A DNA stretch of 64,000 bases from NCBI RefSeq assembly GCF_008017445.1, contig NZ_VRSW01000001.1, positions 868,001 through 932,000 of the forward strand, in the 5' to 3' direction. The stretch's first letter is position 1, and each line of letters opens with the position of its first letter. Below the pieces are notes generated by a model. That model had not been told where the DNA came from, ran no database searches, and saw only the letters and a program-made list of their open reading frames with translations. The translations under genes were made by a program, and so were the position numbers. This stretch comes from Microbacterium mitrae (GTDB lineage: Bacteria > Actinomycetota > Actinomycetes > Actinomycetales > Microbacteriaceae). Shown here in pieces: positions 22,026-50,473 of this stretch.

Positions 22026-22156
22026 TACGCGCCGCCTGGGCGGCGGAACCATGGAACCAGGTGGGCGCGAGACCGCGGAACCACGGAACCACGGAACCAC
22101 GGCACCGCGGAACCACGAACTAGCGCAGGAGACCAGGGCGCGCGCCGCGCCAAACG

Positions 22157-27797: not shown

Positions 27798-29675
27798 GTG
27801 CCCGTGACATCTGCATTCTCAGACGCGCCCGACGGAGACATCGTCCCCGACGCGACGCTTGTCGACCGCGCACGCGATGGCGACACCGCCGCCTACGGTG
27901 AGCTCTGGACTCGCCACTATGGCGCGGGCCTCGGCGCCGCCCGAGCGGTTACTTCCTCCATCGACGCAGATGACCTCGTGCAGGAGTCATTCACCCGCAT
28001 CTACCAAGCCATCCAGCGAGGCGGCGGCCCGCAGGGCGCATTTCGCGCCTACCTGTTCACCAGCATCCGCAATACCGCGGCCTCGTGGGGTCGAGCACGC
28101 CAAGAGTCGTCTATCGATGACCTTGACGTGGTGGCTGATCCCTCGACCACCGACGCAGAAACTGAAGCGGCGCTTGATCGCAGTCTGACGCACACTGCAT
28201 TTCGCAGCCTCCCCACCCGTTGGCAGGAGGTGCTCTGGTACACCGAGATCGAGCAGCTAAAGCCGTCGCAGGCTGCGCCACTTTTGGGCATGAAAGCGAC
28301 CGCCGTCGCTCAACTCGCCCTGCGCGCTCGTGAGGGCCTGCGCGAAGCGTGGGTTACCGCACATCTGAAGACCCTTGACGACGGTTCCATGTGCCAGTGG
28401 ACCATCGAACGCCTCGGCGCATACTCTCGTGGTTCCGCGAGCACGCGCGACAAGGCGAAAATCGAAGCCCACCTTGGTGAGTGCGCGCGCTGCGCGATTG
28501 TCGCCGGTGAGGCCGAGCACGTATCCTCGCGTCTCGCTCTGGTGCTACTGCCTCTCACGCTGGGCGCGACGGGTGCGGCCTCGTACCTTGCGACGCTGCA
28601 GGGCGGCGGCTTGACGCTGGTGGCTCTTGCTGCCGGAGCATCGCCCGTCATGCCGGGTGGCGTCACCGAGTCAGTCGTGGGCACGGCCGTTGGTTCCGCT
28701 ACTGCGGCAGCAGGCGCAGCGGGTGCAGGCGCCGGTGCAGCCGGTGGCTCCTCAGGTGTCGGCGGAGCGGTCGGAACCGGTGGGCTGGTTGGCGTGTTGT
28801 CGGTCGCCGCCGCCGGCGCGCTCATCGCGGGTGCCGCGATCGTCGGCGTGACGGTTTCTGGCTCGGCACCGCAACCCGTGGCGGCCGACGATTCCGCCCA
28901 GAACTCACTGACCGACACGGCGCAGGTCATGCCGGATGTTGTGGTTTCAGCCCCGCCTGCTCCTGCTCCCGCGCTGACGCTTGAGCCATCGCCGTCACCG
29001 AGCGCGCTCCCGCCAACCCTCGTTCCGGCACCCCCTCGCACTTCCGCGCCAGCGGCACCTGTCGTGATCACGCCGCTCGATCCCGCACCGGCAGCGACTA
29101 CTGCGCCGCAGCCAGAACCGAGCATCCCCGCAACGGAGGAGCCGTCACCGCAGCCCTCGTTGGTTCCGTCCCCGGAGCCGACGGCAAAACCGTCTCCCGA
29201 GCCGACCACGGAGCCAACGCTGCGACCGACCCCGCCGCCGACCCTTGAGCCAACGCCGACTCCCGAGCCCACCATCGCACCAGAACCGACGCCGACGCCG
29301 ACGCCGACGCCTGAGCCGACTCCCACACCCGATCCGACTCCCACACCCGATCCGACTCCCACACCCGATCCGACACCGACACCCACACCGACGCCGGAGC
29401 CCGAAGACCCGCCCATGCTGCGCGGATGGGATCAATACGACGACTACTTCGCGTGGGTGAGCATTGGCGGCACCGACGGTCGTGACGTCGGCGTGTTCGT
29501 TAACGGAAACCAGTACTCCTCGGCACGAGTCGTCGGCGGAACCGCAAACTTCTGGATTGCCTCACTGTCACCAATCCAAGATGCCGAGATCTTCTTCCGC
29601 TATCTCGACGGCGCCCAGGAGCAGTCTGAGACGCACACCGGTGCCGAGTGGGAAGCCCTGCTCAACCCCGGGTAA
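27798..29675 (+). CDS. ECF sigma factor fused to zinc-finger anti-sigma, membrane and stalk domains
   Basis: 625 residues. Residues about 20-95 are sigma region 2 (AYGELWTRHY, DADDLVQESFTRIYQ), and about 130-185 are sigma region 4. A zf-HC2-like anti-sigma segment follows near 200-235 (KIEAHLGECARC). Hydrophobic segments come next (about 250-285 and 325-350, with a Gly/Ala-rich loop). Then comes an extracytoplasmic Pro/Thr stalk of about 170 residues rich in PTP, PEP and PDP units, and an 85-residue terminal domain. Start is GTG at 27798 or 27804. The fused architecture suggests a self-contained, membrane-held sigma factor released by a surface signal. The target regulon is unknown. Confidence 0.8.
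   Translation: MPVTSAFSDAPDGDIVPDATLVDRARDGDTAAYGELWTRHYGAGLGAARAVTSSIDADDLVQESFTRIYQAIQRGGGPQGAFRAYLFTSIRNTAASWGRARQESSIDDLDVVADPSTTDAETEAALDRSLTHTAFRSLPTRWQEVLWYTEIEQLKPSQAAPLLGMKATAVAQLALRAREGLREAWVTAHLKTLDDGSMCQWTIERLGAYSRGSASTRDKAKIEAHLGECARCAIVAGEAEHVSSRLALVLLPLTLGATGAASYLATLQGGGLTLVALAAGASPVMPGGVTESVVGTAVGSATAAAGAAGAGAGAAGGSSGVGGAVGTGGLVGVLSVAAAGALIAGAAIVGVTVSGSAPQPVAADDSAQNSLTDTAQVMPDVVVSAPPAPAPALTLEPSPSPSALPPTLVPAPPRTSAPAAPVVITPLDPAPAATTAPQPEPSIPATEEPSPQPSLVPSPEPTAKPSPEPTTEPTLRPTPPPTLEPTPTPEPTIAPEPTPTPTPTPEPTPTPDPTPTPDPTPTPDPTPTPTPTPEPEDPPMLRGWDQYDDYFAWVSIGGTDGRDVGVFVNGNQYSSARVVGGTANFWIASLSPIQDAEIFFRYLDGAQEQSETHTGAEWEALLNPG
29328..29384 (+). repeat. Coding microsatellite, 18-bp unit
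   Basis: Inside the stalk of the sigma fusion, the unit CCCGATCCGACTCCCACA is repeated three times with few changes, encoding PDPTPT. Such in-frame repeats can change length without frameshift. Confidence 0.75.
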
Positions 29676-41292: not shown

Positions 41293-42018
41293 TTAGTTCG
41301 TTGACTGACCCTTGATCGGCAACACCTTGAAGCCCTTGGTGGCGCCTGATGCGGGAGGAATGACGACAACCAGCTCGCCATCCTTCTGCGTGGCGGCAAC
41401 GACCATGTCGGCCGGGAGGTTGGCGTGTACGGCAGAAGCCGAGACACCCTTGATAGCACCGGCTTTGGTCGCCTGACCGCTGAGCTGCTTGAGCGACTTC
41501 TTGTCGAGTGAGGCAACCCAACCGCCGAAGTGCATGGCCTGCTCATCAACCGTGCCAGCCGGCGCGTCGGCGCGGCCGATCAGCACGAGCGGAGCCGGCT
41601 TGTTGCCGTTCATGGCGTTGAGGCCCAGCGAGCGCTGAACGCCAACCCAACCACGCTGCTGGAACTCGGCAAACAACTTTGCGCCGGCACTCTTCTTCGT
41701 CGCGAAGTAGATGACGAGCAAAACGATGCCGAGTGGGATCAGCACGAGCGGCGCCCACACGTAGAGGTAGCGCCAAAACTCGGACACCGCAGAGCGGCGA
41801 CCCTCGAACGTGACGGCGTCGGGCGAGAGGAAGTAGCGCTCGATGAGCATCCAGTTCCAGTTCGACGCGGAGCCGAGCTGGAACAGGTTCATACCGATAC
41901 CGGCAGCCGCGACCACGAGAGACGCAATGGCACCGGTCAGAAGACCCTTGGGCTGCTTCACCGCGGCTGCGAAACCCGCCGGCGTTGACAATTGATTCTG
42001 AAGAGCTGCAATAGACAC
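41293..42018 (-). CDS. Membrane protein of unknown function
   Basis: 241 residues. Two membrane helices (about 27-48 and 88-108) flank a loop of about 40 residues; the cytosolic C-terminal half of 130 residues has beta-rich character and ends VLPIKGQSTN. It resembles conserved but unnamed Microbacteriaceae proteins. No partner gene overlaps it; the repeat array begins just upstream. Confidence 0.6.
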   Translation of the reverse strand: MSIAALQNQLSTPAGFAAAVKQPKGLLTGAIASLVVAAAGIGMNLFQLGSASNWNWMLIERYFLSPDAVTFEGRRSAVSEFWRYLYVWAPLVLIPLGIVLLVIYFATKKSAGAKLFAEFQQRGWVGVQRSLGLNAMNGNKPAPLVLIGRADAPAGTVDEQAMHFGGWVASLDKKSLKQLSGQATKAGAIKGVSASAVHANLPADMVVAATQKDGELVVVIPPASGATKGFKVLPIKGQSTN

Positions 42019-42164
42019 GGCGAGAGTCTATGTCATGACGGCGGCCCTGACCCAATATCACCCCGTTACCGGCCCAATTCCCCCGCCCAATCCCCCTGGT
42101 TCCGTGGGCTCCGCTGGTTCCGTGCGCTCTCCTGGTTACGCGCTCTGCCCTGGTTCCGCGCGCT

Positions 42165-42731
42165 GTCCTGGTTCCGTGCGCTGCGGAACCATGGGACACG
42201 CGGCAGCAGGAGATTACGCCGACGGAAGGAGATCAGGCCGAAATACTCCGTCCCCCACGTGAATCTCCTTCCCTCGCGTTAACGAACCCGCCTCACACAG
42301 CCCGTGGTTCCGCGCGCTGCGGAACCACGAGCCACGCGGCAGCAGGAGATTACGCTGACGGAAGGAGATCAGGCCGAAATGCTCCGCCTCCCACGTGAAT
42401 CTCCTTCCCTCGCGTTAACGAAACCGCGCTCACACAGCCCGTGGTTCCGCGCGCTTCGGAACCACGAGCCACGCGGCAGCAGGAGATTACGCCGACGGAA
42501 GGAGATCTGGCCGAAGCACTCCGTCTCCCACGTGAATCTCCTTCCCTCGCGTTAACGAACCCGCGCGCCACGCACGCGAGGCGGGCATCGGCTACCCACA
42601 AACCCGCTGGCCCCGCCCCCTAGTTCCGCGCGCTGCGGAACCACGAGCCACGTGGCAGCGGGAGATTACGCCGGCAGCAGGAGATCTGGCCGAAATACTC
42701 CGTCACCCACGTGAATCTCCTTCCCTCGCGT
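42165..42731. repeat. Two-hairpin repeat array, copies 1-4
   Basis: Four related units with cores at 42200-42287, 42336-42423, 42473-42560 and 42652-42731; the first three have a 136-137-bp period. Each unit has hairpin 1, for example GTGGTTCCGC with GCGGAACCAC at 42304-42328, then GGCAGCAGGAGATTACG, then hairpin 2 with arms GGAAGGAGAT and ATCTCCTTCC around a 38-base loop, then CCTCGCG(TTAACGA). Copy 4 is more diverged. The array fills most of the 811-base gap between the membrane protein start (42018) and the AbiEi/DUF559 gene. Nothing here looks coding: the frames are repeat shadows. Confidence 0.85.
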
Positions 42732-42829
42732 GGGCGGCTCAACTCTCCACACACGCGAAACCGGTCTCGATTGTCCACAATTGGGCTGGACTCGTCCAAC
42801 ACACAACCACGCGCCGCCAGGGTGGATGC

Positions 42830-43687
42830 ATGGATCTGATGGCTTGGATTGCCGCGCGGGGCGGCGTCGCGCATCGGCGTGACGCGTTGCGCCGCGGCGC
42901 AACAGACGGAACCATTCGCCGCGCGATTCTCGACGGGAGCGTTCGGGTCGTGAGACGGCAGTGGCTGGTGCAGGCTGACGCGACGGCGGAGCTTGTACTG
43001 GCCGCATCGAGAGGTGCCCGGCTCGCATGCCTGTCGGTCGCCTTGATTCGCGGGTGGTGGATCCCTGACGGCGTCTCGATCAAACCGCATCTGAGCCTGC
43101 CGCCTCACGCCACTGACAGGTCGCGCGCAGATGATGGGTGCGTTCGCCACTGGGACGAGCCGCTCACACCTTTCGGAGCGTACGATCTGGTCGAGCCTTC
43201 GATTGACGCACTTCGTCACGTTGCAATGTGTTTGCCGATGGACGATGCACTTGCCGTGTGGGAGTCGGCCATTCGTCAAGAAGAGCTCGATCCTGCTTCG
43301 TTGGCCCTCATTCCATGGAAGAACACGCGCGCCGCGCAGCTTGCCGCAGAATGCACAGGATTGCCGGACTCTGGGCTGGAGACCCGTTTCGTGACACGAA
43401 TACGTCGCCGCGGAGTTCAGGTTGTGCAGCAGGCGTGGATCGCCGGGCGGCCGGTCGATGGACTCATCGGCGAATGGCTGGTGGTTCAACTCGACGGCCA
43501 GGAGCATCATGCTGCGGCACCAGAGCGCGCCCGCGATGCCGCGCTCGACGCCGAACTAACCCTGCGCGGATACACCGTGCTGCGGTTTACCTACGCCCAG
43601 GTGATTCATCACTGGCCTGCAACAGAACGTACCGTCCTTCGCGCGATGGCGGCCGGGCTTCACCTTCGTCCGCGCCGGGCTGCGTAG
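42830..43687 (+). CDS. AbiEi-like N-terminus plus DUF559 (Vsr-like) endonuclease-fold protein
   Basis: 285 residues. The N-terminal 50 (WIAARGGVAHRRDALRRGAT, then VRRQWLV) match the winged-helix AbiEi antitoxin domain. The C-terminal 90 match DUF559/Vsr-like PD-(D/E)xK folds: GLETRF, then GRPVDGLIGEWLVVQLDG, HH, RARDAALDAELTLRGYTVLRF. In the usual (V/I)xE(V/I)DG position the Glu is Gln (VVQLDG), a variant common in actinobacterial members. The ATG has no clear ribosome site, only GGTGG. No toxin partner (AbiEii) is adjacent. It is bracketed by copies 1-4 and 5-6 of the two-hairpin repeat. Nuclease activity is inferred. Confidence 0.75.
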   Translation: MDLMAWIAARGGVAHRRDALRRGATDGTIRRAILDGSVRVVRRQWLVQADATAELVLAASRGARLACLSVALIRGWWIPDGVSIKPHLSLPPHATDRSRADDGCVRHWDEPLTPFGAYDLVEPSIDALRHVAMCLPMDDALAVWESAIRQEELDPASLALIPWKNTRAAQLAAECTGLPDSGLETRFVTRIRRRGVQVVQQAWIAGRPVDGLIGEWLVVQLDGQEHHAAAPERARDAALDAELTLRGYTVLRFTYAQVIHHWPATERTVLRAMAAGLHLRPRRAA

Positions 43688-43731
43688 ATTCCTCACCGCG
43701 CCCATCGCCGGGTTCGCTCCGCAGCGCCCCT

Positions 43732-43815
43732 CGGTTCCGTGCTCGCGCCCTTCGGTTCCGCGCTCGCGCCCCGCGGTTCCGCGCTCGCGCCCTCCAGTTC
43801 CGCGCTCGCGACGCA
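43732..43815. repeat. 21-bp tandem repeat, four units
   Basis: Units of the type CGGTTCCGCGCTCGCGCCC at 43732, 43753, 43774 and 43795, with few substitutions. They lie just downstream of the AbiEi/DUF559 gene in a 725-base gap that otherwise contains repeat copies 5 and 6 and no gene. Confidence 0.8.
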
Positions 43816-43955
43816 CCGGTGACTCCGCCCCGCCTCGGCACCGCCGCACCCAGAGACTCTGTCGCGCCCCGTACGCCCGCTACCCCGCCGCTCGCCCAAG
43901 CTGTGATGGTTCCGTCTGGCAACTGCGTAGGCGATTCACGGGCGTCGCACCCACC

Positions 43956-44240
43956 CGGCAGCAGGAGATTACGCCGGCAGACGGAGACCAGGCTGAAAAT
44001 CTCCTTCCCCCGCGTGAATCTCCTTCCCCCGCGTTGCGGACGGAGCCCGGAACCATCGACAGCGCGCGAGACAGCGCGCGAGACAGCGCGCGAGACAGAT
44101 CCCGATAGCGCGAGAGAGACAGAGCACTAACCCATGCGGCAGCAGGGGGTCACACCCACGCGACAGCAGGAGATTACGCCGGCAGACGGAGATCAGGCTG
44201 AAAGCCTCCTTCCCCCGCGTGAATCTCCTTCTCTCCCGTC
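43956..44240. repeat. Two-hairpin repeat, copies 5 and 6
   Basis: Copy 5 at 43956-44037 and copy 6 at 44161-44240 carry the same core (GGCAGCAGGAGATTACGCCGGCAG, split by small changes, and CGTGAATCTCCTTC) as the upstream array. Between them are three exact 12-bp units AGCGCGCGAGAC at 44061-44096 and a partial start of another copy at 44136. The set ends about 125 bases before the exporter operon terminator. Confidence 0.8.
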
Positions 44241-44366
44241 GCAGATAGACCGCGGAACCATGGACAGCGCGCGAGACAAATCACCACAGAACGAGACACG
44301 ACACCCCGCACGAGACAGACCACCACCCCAAGACAGCCCCCGATAAGCCCCTCCGACACCAAAGCA

Positions 44367-44400
44367 GTGGGGGCTTGAGTCCGAAGACTCAAGCCCCCAC
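44367..44400 (-). terminator. Terminator of ABC exporter operon
   Basis: 15-bp perfect stem (44367-44381 with 44386-44400), loop CGAA, 12 bases past the exporter stop. Confidence 0.85.
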
Positions 44401-44412
44401 CGAGGTACAACG

Positions 44413-46224
44413 TTAGACCAGGCTGTTGCGCCACGCGGCGTGGAGCTTCGCGAACTTTCCGGCGCCCGCAATCAACACTGCTGGCGCGTCATCCTCGATG
44501 ATCTGGCCGTGCTCCATCACCAAGACGCGGTCGGCGATCGCGACCGTCGACAACCGGTGCGCGATAATGATTGCCGTGCGATCGGCCAGCAGCGTCTGCA
44601 ACGCCTCTTGAATCTGCCGCTCAGACGGAATATCGAGCGAGGCCGTTGCCTCATCGAGAATCAGCACCGCTGGGTTCGCCAAGAACGCCCGCGCGAACGA
44701 GATCAGTTGTCGCTGACCCGCCGAGACGCGACCGCCACGCTTGTTGACATCGGTGTTGTAGCCGTCGGGCAACGCTTCGATGAAGGCCGAGGCGCCAACC
44801 GCATCCGCGGCTGCCTTGATCTCCGCAAACGACGCCTCCGGCTTACCCAACGCGATGTTGTCAGCCACGGTGCCGCTGAACAGATACGCCTCCTGCGTCA
44901 CCATCACGATGGCTCGGCGCAGATCCTTCGGGTGCATCGCCCGCAGGTCGACGCCGTCGAGGCGAACGGAACCTTCAGATGGGTCGTAAAAGCGCGACAC
45001 CAGCTTCGCGAGCGTCGTCTTGCCCGCACCCGTGGTTCCGACCAGCGCCACCGTCTGACCCGCCGGAATCTCCAGCGAGAAGTTCGGCAAAATGGTGCGC
45101 TCGCGCGAGTATCCGAAGGTGACCTTGTCGAAGGTGAGGTCTCCGCGGGCCTCCCACAGGTCAACGGGCTGGGTGGGATCTGGAACCGTGGGTTGCTCTT
45201 CGAGCACACCAGATACCTTTTCGAGCGCGGCGGTTGCCGACTGGTACGAGTTCAAGAACATCGCGACCTCTTGCAGCGGGCTGAAGAAGTTGCGCACATA
45301 CAGCACGGCCGCCAGCAGCACACCGACCTCCAGCGTTCCCATCGGAATACGCAGGCCACCCCACAGCACAACAAGTGCCAACGCTACGGCGGAGATCGCC
45401 ATCATGCCGGGGTCAAACGTGCCGTACAGCTTCATGGAGCGGAGGTTCACGTCACGGTACTGGCCGCCGACTTCGGCAAACTTCGCGTCGTTGGAGGGTT
45501 CCTTACGGAAGGCCTTCACGGCGCGAATGCCGGTCATCGTCTCAACAAACTGCACGATGACCTTCGCCGAAACCACGCGCGATTCGCGGTAGATCAGCTG
45601 TGAACGCGAGTAGAACCACCGCATCAAGAAGTACAGCGGCAGGAACATCACCAGCAGCACAATGCCTGACTGCCAATCGATCAAGAACAGCGCCGCCAGC
45701 GTGAATCCGCCATACAGCACACCGGAGACGAGCTGGTTCAGGCCGCCGTCGAGCAGTTCGCGAATCGACTCCAGGTCGCTGGTCTGGCGCGAAATAATGC
45801 GACCAGACGTGTACGACTCGTGAAATTCGAGGCTCAATCGCTGGGTGTGCAGGAAGATGCGCTTACGCAAATCCAGCATGACAGCCTGCGTGAGCTTGGC
45901 CGCCAGCACCGCATATGCCGCGATCAATGCGCCGCCGCCAACACCGGCGACGATGAGCCCGATCGATGCTGCCCACGTGGGCATCCACTCGTTTTCGTTG
46001 ACAGCGAGCGGCAACGCCACGTCGATGCCGTAGGCGATCAGCGCCGGGGCGGCAACGCGGAACGCCGTGGAGACGACGAGCACGAGCGCGGCAAGCACCA
46101 GCCACCACTTCAGCGGGCTCACCAGGGAGGCGAGCAGCTTCAGGGAGCGGCGACGAATCGCCTTGCTCTCAGCCTTCGTATAGTCCAGGCGTTCTTCACC
46201 CTGGGTTCCGACGACGGTACTCAC
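44413..46224 (-). CDS. ABC exporter half-transporter, canonical Walker B subunit
   Basis: 603 residues: six membrane helices then an ATPase domain with Walker [10 protein letters not shown], Walker [13 protein letters not shown] (catalytic Glu present) and switch His (IIAHRLST). Its signature is degenerate, VSAGQRQ instead of LSGGQ. Starts at GTG overlapping the upstream stop (GTGA). It pairs with the partner gene to form a heterodimer with one consensus and one degenerate ATP site, as in TM287/288 or BmrCD. Drug or lipid export is likely but substrate unknown. Confidence 0.92.
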
Positions 46225-48470: not shown

Positions 48471-48974
48471 TTAGGCCGCCGCAGCCTCCCGCGCCAGCAG
48501 CGACTCCTTGACGGCGACGCCCCACGCAAATCCGCCCATAGTTCCGTCGCTGCGCAGTACGCGGTGGCACGGAACAAATAGCGCGGGGGCATTGCGCGCG
48601 CAGATCGATGCGGCCGCACGCACCGCCGAGGGCGAGCCGAGGTGTACGGCGAACTCGCTGTAGGTAAGAGGGGTGCCCGGCGCGATGGTGCGCAACGCCT
48701 GCCATCCGGCGTGCTGCAGCGTGGTTCCGCTCTGCGTCACCGGCACCGCCATGATTGCTGCCAGATCGCCGCCATAGAACGCGCGAACCGCGTCGGCCGC
48801 CTGGCCCGTGTCACCGTCGACCACGCTGGTCGGCCGATTCTTCTCCGCGAGGCGCGCGAGCAGGTGCTCGGCGCTTTCGGTCCAGCCGGAGGCGATGACG
48901 GAACCATCGCGAGTGAGAATGCCGAAGGTGCCGTCGGGGGTGTCAAGAAATTGGATCGTAGCGCTCATGCTCAT
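48471..48974 (-). CDS. ogt: Methylated-DNA-protein-cysteine methyltransferase
   Basis: 167 residues, with the suicidal active-site Cys136 in VPCHRVL, the HTH Arg finger ([13 protein letters not shown]) and [13 protein letters not shown] at the C-terminus. Repairs O6-methylguanine by accepting the alkyl group. The start at 48974 overlaps the upstream Ada-AlkA stop (ATGA); a second ATG two codons on is possible. Confidence 0.92.
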
Positions 48975-50473
48975 GCATCTTTCGGTGAGTCGGACGGTGT
49001 CGATGTTGGTGTGAGGGTCGCGGGCCGCGTCGCGGAAGCGCGCCACAGGTGGGCGGTGAGATACGAACGCCAGGGTGCGAATTGTTCCGCCCAGGCGGCG
49101 AATGCGCGCGGCTCGTCTGGTGCGCCGATTGCGCGCGCTCCGGCACGCACCGCGACGTCGCCCGGCAGCGTGATGTCAGGGTCACCGACCACGCGCATGC
49201 GCACATAGTCAGCCGTCCACGGGCCAACGCCGGGCAGGGCGAGCAGTGCGGCGCGTTGCTCGTGGGAGTCATCACCGCGGCTGAGCGTCAATTCACCATC
49301 AGCGAGCCGGCGAGCGGTCTCCACAATCGCGCGCGTGCGCGCCGCCGGCCCACGCAATACCGAGGTGCCGTGATCGGCAATCGCTCGCATAGACGGAAAC
49401 AGCCGCGCGGATTGCGGACCGACGTCGGTGAGTTCGCCCAGCTCTTCGGTGAGCCGAGTGAGGTGTGTGCGTGCTGCCGGAACGGAAATCTGCTGCCCGA
49501 TCATCGCCCGAATCAGCATCTCCTCCGCACTCATCGCTCCGGGCACCCGAATACCAGGGCACGCCGCGACCAGAGGCGCTGCCGCCGGAACCACGGCGAG
49601 AGCTTCGTCGATGGCGAGCGGGTCGGCATCAAGATCAAACAGGCGACGAACCCGTGCGATCAGCACCCGCAGGTCCGAGATCGAAGTGAGCCGGGCCGCA
49701 AGCGCGAGGCGAGAGCCAGACAGGGTCAATCGCATCCACGCGGGGCCGCCGGGCAGGGCAATGACCCGGCTGTACGATGACGCGTTCGCCTCTTCGGTGC
49801 CGACGATGGCACGCGCCGCCATCCACTCGAACAAGCCGGCGGCGTCGAACGGCTCCCGATATGGCAACGCCAACTCAATGAGGCCGGGCGTCGTGTCGGC
49901 GTGTTCCCGGCGCCGGGCCCGCAAGGCGCCCGGAGTCATGTCGAACACCTCGCGAATGGTGTCGTTAAACTGCCTGACGCTGGCGAATCCGGCAGAGAAC
50001 GCCACGTCGGTGACCGTCAGGTCGGTGCCAACGAGAAGCGCGCGCGCGGTGTGGGCACGATGCGCTCGTGCGAGCGCGAGCGGACCAGCACCAAGCTCGG
50101 CGGTCAGCACCCGACCAAGGTGGCGGCTCGAATACCCGAGCCTATGCGCGAGCCCATCGACCCCCTCGCGCTCGATCACCCCGTCGGCGATGAGCCGCAT
50201 GGCACGCCCTGCCGTGTCAGAACGTACGTCCCATACCGGAGAGCCCGGCGCAGCCTCCGGCAGGCACCGCTTGCACGCCCGATAGCCCGCCTCGTGAGCG
50301 GCGGCCGACGTCGGATAAAACGTGACGTTGGCCTCCTTGGGGGTTCGCGCGGGGCACGACGGTCGGCAGTAAATGCCGGTGGTGCGCACCGCGGTGACGA
50401 ACTGGCCGTCAAACCGAGCATCGCGCGAGCTAATCGCGCGGTATCGCTCATCGAAGGAGGCTACGTTCGTCAT
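48971..50473 (-). CDS. Ada metal-binding/AraC regulator fused to AlkA glycosylase
   Basis: 500 residues with three domains. First is an Ada N-terminal zinc domain with Cys36, Cys40, Cys67 and Cys70, which takes methyl from phosphotriesters. Second is an AraC helix-turn-helix pair ([16 protein letters not shown] and [17 protein letters not shown]). Third is an AlkA N-terminal plus HhH-GPD glycosylase with [15 protein letters not shown] and the catalytic Asp in LPGDVAV. It senses alkylation, activates transcription and excises 3-methyladenine in one chain. Coupled to ogt, it forms a complete adaptive response. Confidence 0.93.

Follow-up and report, generated by a model that had tools for sequence, protein, structure and literature searches.

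The 64,000-nucleotide stretch analysed here (the window: bases 868001–932000 of contig C1, NZ_VRSW01000001.1, in the 2.82-Mb genome of Microbacterium mitrae, labelled G000) carries a gene for a 285-residue protein with a predicted nuclease domain, bracketed by six copies of an 82-bp palindromic repeat, which we call the array. We estimate at roughly 60% the probability that this locus exemplifies a nuclease-array module widespread in the genus and found in other genera of the family. With the same confidence, we read the module as a counterpart, built on an unrelated nuclease, of the REPtrons, in which repetitive extragenic palindromes (REPs) accompany a REP-associated tyrosine transposase (RAYT). 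With a shade less assurance, we lean towards regarding these loci as a new class, a large and fast-diversifying family of AbiEi-EDxHD nucleases whose private four-site arrays bracket the gene and disperse genome-wide.

The nuclease gene occupies positions 42830..43687 of the window on the + strand; residues 1–179 of its product are AbiEi-antitoxin-like and residues 180–279 EDxHD/Vsr-like (Pfam DUF559). Four arrays lie 5' of the gene, at 42198..42279 (copy 1, an 82-bp four-site nested palindrome scoring 65.5 bits with the genus model R2 described below; L039:869-950), 42334..42415 (copy 2), 42471..42552 (copy 3) and 42650..42731 (copy 4, the nearest to the gene start). Two lie 3' of it, at 43953..44034 (copy 5, more distant from the gene than in any relative tested) and 44158..44239 (copy 6). 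All six are on the + strand and match R2. A first-pass annotation of the window had reported six repeats, four upstream and two downstream of a single open reading frame, and both the number and the bracketing are confirmed, with positions displaced by only 1–3 bp. It had also given each unit two hairpins. The GGAAGGAGAT/ATCTCCTTCC hairpin is indeed present, but as the inner portion of a longer nested palindrome; the GTGGTTCCGC/GCGGAACCAC hairpin does not belong to each unit, as it stands, complete or as a variant, before each of the four copies upstream, whereas the two downstream ones lack it.

The unit was delimited in an alignment (A1) of 35 copies from the own genome, 33 of which are 82 bp long, one 81 and one 83; the outer end was set by hand for four copies (L051:5036, L052:4820, L060:4967, L061:4536), in which automatic end-finding had halted at an inner site. 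The 36th copy (L055:5242-5342) measures 101 bp and has five sites, with one additional 19-bp unit in register. Each copy has conserved GGAG/CTCC cores at a pitch of ~19 bp, two forward and two inverted. When half-elements of 151 gene-flanking elements were compared with themselves, identity was 0.46–0.48 at an 18-bp lag and 0.40 at 19 bp, against 0.23–0.32 at other lags. Taken together, the orientation of the cores and these lag peaks mean that the unit comprises four copies of a word, two per direction; by its sequence the array is therefore a four-word array and, simultaneously, a nested palindrome. Arrays of the module are 75–85 bp long and carry a gene-specific word of ~10–15 bp, twice forward and twice inverted, at a pitch of 18–19 bp. 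In one odd variant, L082:1501-1574, the first word seems by eye to pair with the third site, not the fourth. Of the two ends, compared over the 19 own-genome places of the family, the left is sharply defined, with 2.0 bits at the two bases immediately inside and <0.5 bits directly outside; the right is less well defined (~0.9 bits at +2 and +4). Five window copies, when folded, gave a moderate gain over shuffles (z −0.6 to −2.7, with poor pairing in some), and a copy from L047 reached z −4.75.

Two other readings of the repeat were considered and set aside. No Rfam family matched up to E 5 within window 41800-44800, the own-genome copies do not covary, and we make no claim for an RNA because the cross-species covariation described below suits base pairing and a shared four-site word alike. 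As for a terminator, neighbour orientation, read by eye from our own gene predictions, placed the 19 own-genome places between convergent (~7), co-directional (~7) and divergent (~5) genes, which is not the pattern of terminators.

A sequence-only array model (R1) matched 53 of 99 genus genomes, the matches having a common architecture and different exact sequences. When 26 copies from congeners were aligned with three from the own genome (A2), covariation backed the nested palindrome: 80.5% of cells were paired vs 71.3 ± 1.0 after shuffling, 21 of 28 pairs showed double changes vs 15.9 ± 1.5, and double-change cells numbered 105 vs 50.5 ± 6.1. On each of the three measures, none of 500 shuffles was as high, and the covariation also exceeded slid controls. 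The palindrome of the array is thus supported by covariation solely across species. Mutual information showed that a change of the base preceding AGGAG in one site tends to be accompanied by changes in the other three, which argues that the four sites evolve as one word.

The window protein, used as a query, found a homologue in 77 of 80 genus genomes (E≤1e-5), and comparison of array-match and gene-match coordinates placed arrays beside the gene in several of them. The genus array model R2, trained on A2, was applied to 117 loci of ~3.8 kb each, comprising the 8 own paralogues, 29 loci that were the best match per genome and 80 taken by E-value among the matches listed. Three loci (L133, L135, L206) in which tblastn left the gene unplaced were excluded, leaving 114 genes from 60 genomes. 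Arrays were found on both sides of 50 of these genes, only 5' of 9, only 3' of 7 and on neither side of 48; leaving aside the own genome, the corresponding numbers among 106 genes were 49, 9, 7 and 41. In all, 67 of the 117 loci held 152 arrays, with zero inside the gene, and at least one R2-flanked nuclease gene was present in 46 of the 60 genomes. In 52 of 59 cases, 88–175 bp separated the end of the nearest 5' array from the protein match that follows it, and in 50 of 57 the nearest 3' array started −11 to +76 bp past the match; the window's 3' array, at 269 bp, was the farthest of the 57. At least three of the 26 congener copies in A2 adjoin tested genes (L065, L077, L084), and one of its own-genome copies comes from the window gene. 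The model-free tests reported below are independent of R2.

Arrays on opposite flanks of one gene shared 74% identity (88 pairs), vs 50% for arrays of different paralogues in one genome (126 pairs, maximum 62%) and 50% for arrays of different genomes (11066 pairs), arrays of same-genome paralogues thus being no more alike. When flanks were shuffled among loci, the observed opposite-flank identity was reached in 0 of 500 trials. Array identity also tracked protein identity (Mantel r 0.546, 64 loci, 0 of 300 permutations), and the comparison of arrays within one genome is independent of phylogeny between species.

Most of the 48 R2-negative genes also have a long palindrome in some flank, for the most part with other words. 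Alignment of their 5' against their 3' flanks gave a median score of 46 vs 21 for flanks of different loci, and 22 of the 48 exceeded the 99% null. The shared stretches are mostly nested palindromes of the same size built on words such as TCGCAGAATC (L120), AACAGGTCAACCG (L211, L221) and CCTGTTCTGCACGAG (L041, a paralogue in the own genome); in the high scorers L191 and L216 the aligned stretch is not a clean palindrome. A model-free test, in which 220 bp of each flank were scored and a palindrome was accepted at ≥23 of 34, was positive in 76 of 114 5' flanks and 66 of 114 3' flanks; among the controls, a single one of 228 in-gene stretches and none of 228 shuffles were positive. Among the R2-negative genes a palindrome was detected 5' in 32, 3' in 25, in at least one flank in 36 and in both in 21, leaving 12 of 48 with none in either flank; 49 palindromes of these genes again showed a self-similarity peak at a 19-bp lag (0.41–0.42). 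When R2 arrays and palindromes were combined, 102 of 114 genes were positive in any flank and 75 in both. Control genes, 125 in number and drawn only from the own genome away from array copies, had a palindrome in 4/125 and 5/125 flanks and on both sides in 0/125. These data indicate that a common architecture spans different words, that the array is specific to each gene, and that bracketing with near-fixed geometry occurs in a large share of homologues. The tie between repeat and endonuclease suggested by the first-pass annotation is therefore clear across the genus, given the near-fixed distances, the gene-specific arrays and the lack of both-sided controls. In the own genome alone it is thin: six of 36 copies are at this gene, and the other seven paralogues have no array of the window family.

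The array of the window gene is dispersed. One copy, used as a query against the own genome, yielded 64 matches (both strands, fragments included), clustered on five contigs. Sixteen stretches were examined, and 36 copies were taken from the window and 14 stretches; 30 of these lie at 17 places away from the gene, all intergenic by our own gene predictions. The L041 paralogue (G000:C1:26659-30462; gene at C1:28159-28962) has a different array family, with the word CCTGTTCTGCACGAG, on both sides of its gene (27926-28032; 29087-29193; 29262-29368). This second family also occurs at ~15 other places on four contigs. The remaining six own paralogues showed a signal in one flank (L040) or none.

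One could ask whether the gene merely sits among intergenic repeats that spread otherwise, in a repeat hotspot or next to miniature inverted-repeat transposable elements of an unrelated transposase. Most own-genome copies of the window-gene family do lie away from the gene, and three genomes in which no homologue was detected contain R2 matches. To set the arrays at homologues against a background, R2 was run on the whole of 80 genomes (276 Mb), with at least 2053 strand-doubled matches; this density is a lower bound because ≤57 candidates were scored per genome. From it, 1.5–3.0 arrays were expected in the 109 congener loci (412 kb), where 146 were found (~12 of them scoring below the whole-genome acceptance cut), that is, a ~50- to 100-fold enrichment at homologues over the lower-bound density. 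Together with array specificity gene by gene inside one genome, the near-fixed distances on both sides and the lack of bracketed control genes among the 125 of the own genome, this enrichment contradicts the hotspot explanation, to which we give almost no credence.

Beyond the genus, a profile search at E≤1e-15 detected the protein in 105 of 150 genomes of the family, spread over 63 of the 85 genera searched. Among 28 loci from other genera (the best match per genome), 12 had a 5'-vs-3' flank alignment above the 99% null, and a palindrome was present 5' in 19 and 3' in 15, against 0 of 56 in-gene controls.

The AlphaFold2 model of the 285-residue protein has a predicted local distance difference test (pLDDT) score of 94.7 and a predicted template modelling (pTM) score of 0.89. 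Its residues 1–179 resemble the AbiEi antitoxin of S. agalactiae (6y8q; Z 8.3, root-mean-square deviation (rmsd) 4.9, 174 aligned residues; Foldseek E 4e-6), and residues 180–279 resemble the homing endonuclease I-Bth0305I (3r3p; Z 13.8, rmsd 2.3, 96 aligned residues; profile match of the domain at E 3.5e-4), with further structural matches to 3hrl (Z 12.8) and Vsr (1vsr, Z 10.3). The winged helix and PD-(D/E)xK-like fold proposed from the first reading were thus right, and can be refined to a two-domain AbiEi-like part followed by an EDxHD/Vsr nuclease. Across 108 homologues four aspartates (D210, D222, D236 and D240) show no variation and two further residues (E184 and H227) almost none, which makes them candidates for the conserved E, D, H and D catalytic residues of EDxHD enzymes. 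Pfam assigned DUF559 to 107 of the 108, MTES_1575 to 91 and AbiEi_4 to 39; the window member itself has no AbiEi_4 match in Pfam, and no transposase family appeared among the Pfam matches of the 108 members up to E 0.01. Values of dN/dS of 0.08–0.20 in seven close pairs indicate that the protein is under purifying selection, and only one of the 114 genes (L205) has an early stop.

A role in defence would have the nuclease recognise arrays or array-like structures in invading DNA, the chromosomal arrays acting as decoys or self marks. PADLOC returned weak matches to AbiEi models, the most frequent of them in 59 of 108 members, and to a model of homing endonucleases in 29 of 108; the window member had none up to E 0.01. 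The genomic context speaks against it as well: of seven neighbouring genes tested with Pfam, one is unmatched, and those recognised encode ABC transporters, a GNAT acetyltransferase, an L,D-transpeptidase and proteins of alkylation repair. We found no support for the defence island that the first-pass annotation had offered as an alternative, and consider a defensive function highly improbable. The absence of a partner toxin noted in that annotation stands, in that no toxin was recognised among the neighbours tested with Pfam. An AbiEii (DUF1814) toxin gene was not found in the same operon, and both adjacent genes are on the other strand; the next gene 3' encodes an ABC transporter, and the 5' neighbour has no Pfam match. 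Farther along, at window 48471-50473, a gene for 6-O-methylguanine DNA methyltransferase adjoins an Ada/AlkA fusion gene, an ordinary alkylation-repair pair.

How might such a module work? By analogy with AbiE operons, the AbiEi-like part would be a natural reader of inverted repeats and might, perhaps as dimers, bind cooperatively to the four words. The nuclease domain would cut the array, probably in a particular state only, such as a single strand, a cruciform or a synapsed pair, and break repair or array copying could then let arrays accumulate between genes. The gene would stay put while the arrays spread; RAYT genes likewise stay in place. Because 36 copies of one family coexist in the chromosome, the enzyme cannot cut every duplex array constantly. 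Cutting of a hairpin, cruciform or synapsed form would resolve this coexistence, as well as the retention of the palindrome across species.

Two other explanations start from the same parts. In a homing module the nuclease would cut gene-free arrays, and the flanking arrays would provide the homology by which gene and arrays are copied into the break, a possibility that we regard as unlikely, though worth serious attention; it is similarly unlikely that the dispersed arrays are empty or former homing sites. Homing would agree with the closest structural relative of the nuclease domain being the homing endonuclease I-Bth0305I, which dimerises on a target of nearly 60 bp (PMC3943268), and with the position of the gene between copies of its presumed target. 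However, close relatives hold the gene at the same locus: among 16 pairs, both outer flanks are syntenic in 14 and the 5' side only in two, indicating syntenic inheritance in the pairs examined. Moreover, in two collections of mobile replicons the window protein had no homologue on plasmids at E 1e-10 or on phages at E 1e-5, and, since arrays differ among the paralogues of a genome, these share no sites. In a regulatory circuit, which we judge rather less plausible still, the AbiEi-like part would repress its own gene via the 5' array, the dispersed arrays would be operators of a regulon and the nuclease would be secondary. AbiEi antitoxins are described as autoregulating on inverted repeats, Rv2827c binding two sets (PMC7319586), and the 88–175 bp between the nearest 5' array and the protein match, as well as the dN/dS values, would suit such a repressor. 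Yet 3' arrays are nearly as frequent (57 genes) as 5' arrays (59), the ~7 of 19 own-genome places between convergent genes are poorly placed for promoters, and the nuclease residues are invariant or nearly so.

Several observations weigh against a nuclease-array module of the REPtron kind. Binding, cutting and movement are all inferred from sequence. No target-site duplication was seen at the 19 places of the family in the own genome, and copies within this genome show no covariation (73.1% of cells paired vs 75.3% shuffled). Mutual information between protein columns and word letters is not concentrated in the predicted recognition helix: the mean summed z, in which phylogeny is still included, is 7.6 for the helix vs 10.7 and 11.1 for the other domains, though for three of nine word positions columns 26–27 take the top rank, in one instance as a tie. 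Linked inheritance alone could also yield the correlation between protein and array identity. In the 50 R2-bracketed loci only 5 flank-vs-flank alignments exceeded their own null, a test that is uninformative there because these arrays share a common word. The window gene falls below the model-free palindrome cut (19 and 18 of 34) and passes by R2 only, as its copies are imperfect and its 3' array lies beyond the 220 bp scored. Clear cognate arrays on both sides were found for only 2 of 8 own paralogues. Finally, the first-pass annotation had named two observations that would speak against a tie, repeats abundant in strains lacking the gene and the gene widespread with no repeats nearby, and each was made only in part. 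Genomes G023, G024 and G039 lack a homologue at E≤1e-5 yet contain R2 matches, with strand-doubled counts of 1, 12 and 6; two of these genomes are incomplete (G023 at 83%, G039 at 44%), and the arrays of the three are possibly orphans left after gene loss. Conversely, G002 and G041 have the gene and zero R2 matches, to which the 12 R2-negative genes with no palindrome in either flank are to be added.

The GTGGTTCCGC/GCGGAACCAC hairpin is a different matter. GTGGTTCCGC and its inverse GCGGAACCAC form an inverted pair of the 8-mer TGGTTCCG, and the pair reported as the first hairpin, at 42304..42328 (no strand) beside copy 2, is outside the 82-bp unit. Genome-wide, TGGTTCCG has 1457+1460 copies on the two strands, against 54+34 for the reversed control, which amounts to about one per 967 bp, strand-symmetric and ~30-fold above congeners. 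Of 366 genus genomes searched, only three are enriched, G000, G324 (1249+1268) and G385 (1186+1186), the remainder having ≤115 per strand. In a 239-kb sample, biased towards repeat places, 180 sites were inside predicted genes (0.96/kb) and 150 between genes (2.9/kb). The window contains 36 + 35 sites, for example at 208, 3226, 10082, 11528, 22044-22115 and 42097-42191. A GGTTCC-containing tandem of 18-bp units at 42094..42182 (no strand) belongs with this signature and is outside the array. The GGTTCC hairpin is a separate genome-wide signature, not a component of the array unit, though some relation between the 8-mer and the arrays is possible. GGTTCC-containing tandems stand on both sides of the locus, the second at 43724-43807 with a 21-bp pitch (18 bp in the first), and at window 22044-22115 the same signature word is arrayed as a run of the 8-mer CGGAACCA, in part a perfect 8-bp tandem. 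The density and strand symmetry of TGGTTCCG resemble those of the DNA uptake sequences of Neisseria or Haemophilus. We know of no DNA uptake sequences in Actinobacteria, and none turned up among the matches of an open-licence literature search.

The module has parts in common with several known systems. With the Vsr mismatch endonucleases it shares the nuclease fold family, and Caulobacter VsrA is described as a DUF559 protein (PMC12907096); no array-bracketed Vsr gene was met in the portions of the literature examined. More broadly, a search of the open-licence literature, with subscription papers and preprints outside its scope, turned up no description of cognate palindromes on either side of genes of the DUF559/AbiEi type. 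I-Bth0305I, of the EDxHD, Vsr-like homing endonucleases, is the closest match in nuclease fold and has a long target bound by a dimer (PMC3943268). Unlike it, the module consists of a free-standing chromosomal gene with an AbiEi-like part and the presumed target on both sides; EDxHD homing genes invade their target, and here the gene does lie between arrays, yet its locus is conserved in the pairs of relatives compared. The two-domain N-terminal part is like the AbiEi antitoxins of the type IV toxin-antitoxin system AbiE, proteins known to bind inverted repeats (PMC7319586); in contrast to AbiE, a nuclease is fused at the C-terminus and arrays also occur 3' of the gene and dispersed.

The nearest likeness in organisation is to REP/REPIN-RAYT systems (TnpA-REP, REPtrons), which also consist of a nuclease or transposase gene with nearby palindromes and dispersed intergenic copies. 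As described in PMC3116915, PMC8266576 and PMC3733652, these repeats lie near the gene and are dispersed, with separate repeat groups per protein and co-evolution of protein and repeat. Three REPtron traits recur here: a repeat-flanked gene (66 of 114 genes with an array on at least one side), repeats dispersed through the genome (two families in the own genome) and a cognate repeat for each protein group (flank identity, Mantel correlation and flank-to-flank alignments). The fourth, the HUH single-tyrosine transposase fold, does not: residues 1–179 and 180–279 are already accounted for by AbiEi and Vsr-type folds, so that no part of the protein remains for an HUH domain, and the module therefore cannot be filed as a RAYT system. 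Whereas RAYTs are HUH tyrosine transposases acting with REPs of one or two short hairpins, the module has an AbiEi-like part with an EDxHD/Vsr-fold nuclease, and its repeat is a ~80-bp four-site nested palindrome. CGTC-tagged REPs are palindromic repeats without a known dedicated transposase (PMC3733652) and resemble the array in that respect.

The genes are paired with their arrays by the sequence itself, which provides dozens of protein-target pairs for binding and cleavage tests (50 both-sided, with a common word). Such matched pairs make repeat spreading directly testable and could yield new sequence-specific nucleases. If the module is real, it would suggest a function for part of the DUF559/AbiEi-like proteins, present across most of the family genomes searched. 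The balance tips, if narrowly, towards the class being a REPtron analogue whose nuclease is not of the HUH type, and a natural catalogue of DNA-binding nucleases matched to their targets. To our knowledge, REP/RAYT is the only described case of a bacterial nuclease gene bracketed by, and co-evolving with, its own dispersed palindromes; the module would then be an independent case with an unrelated nuclease, and such a way of life would have arisen at least twice.

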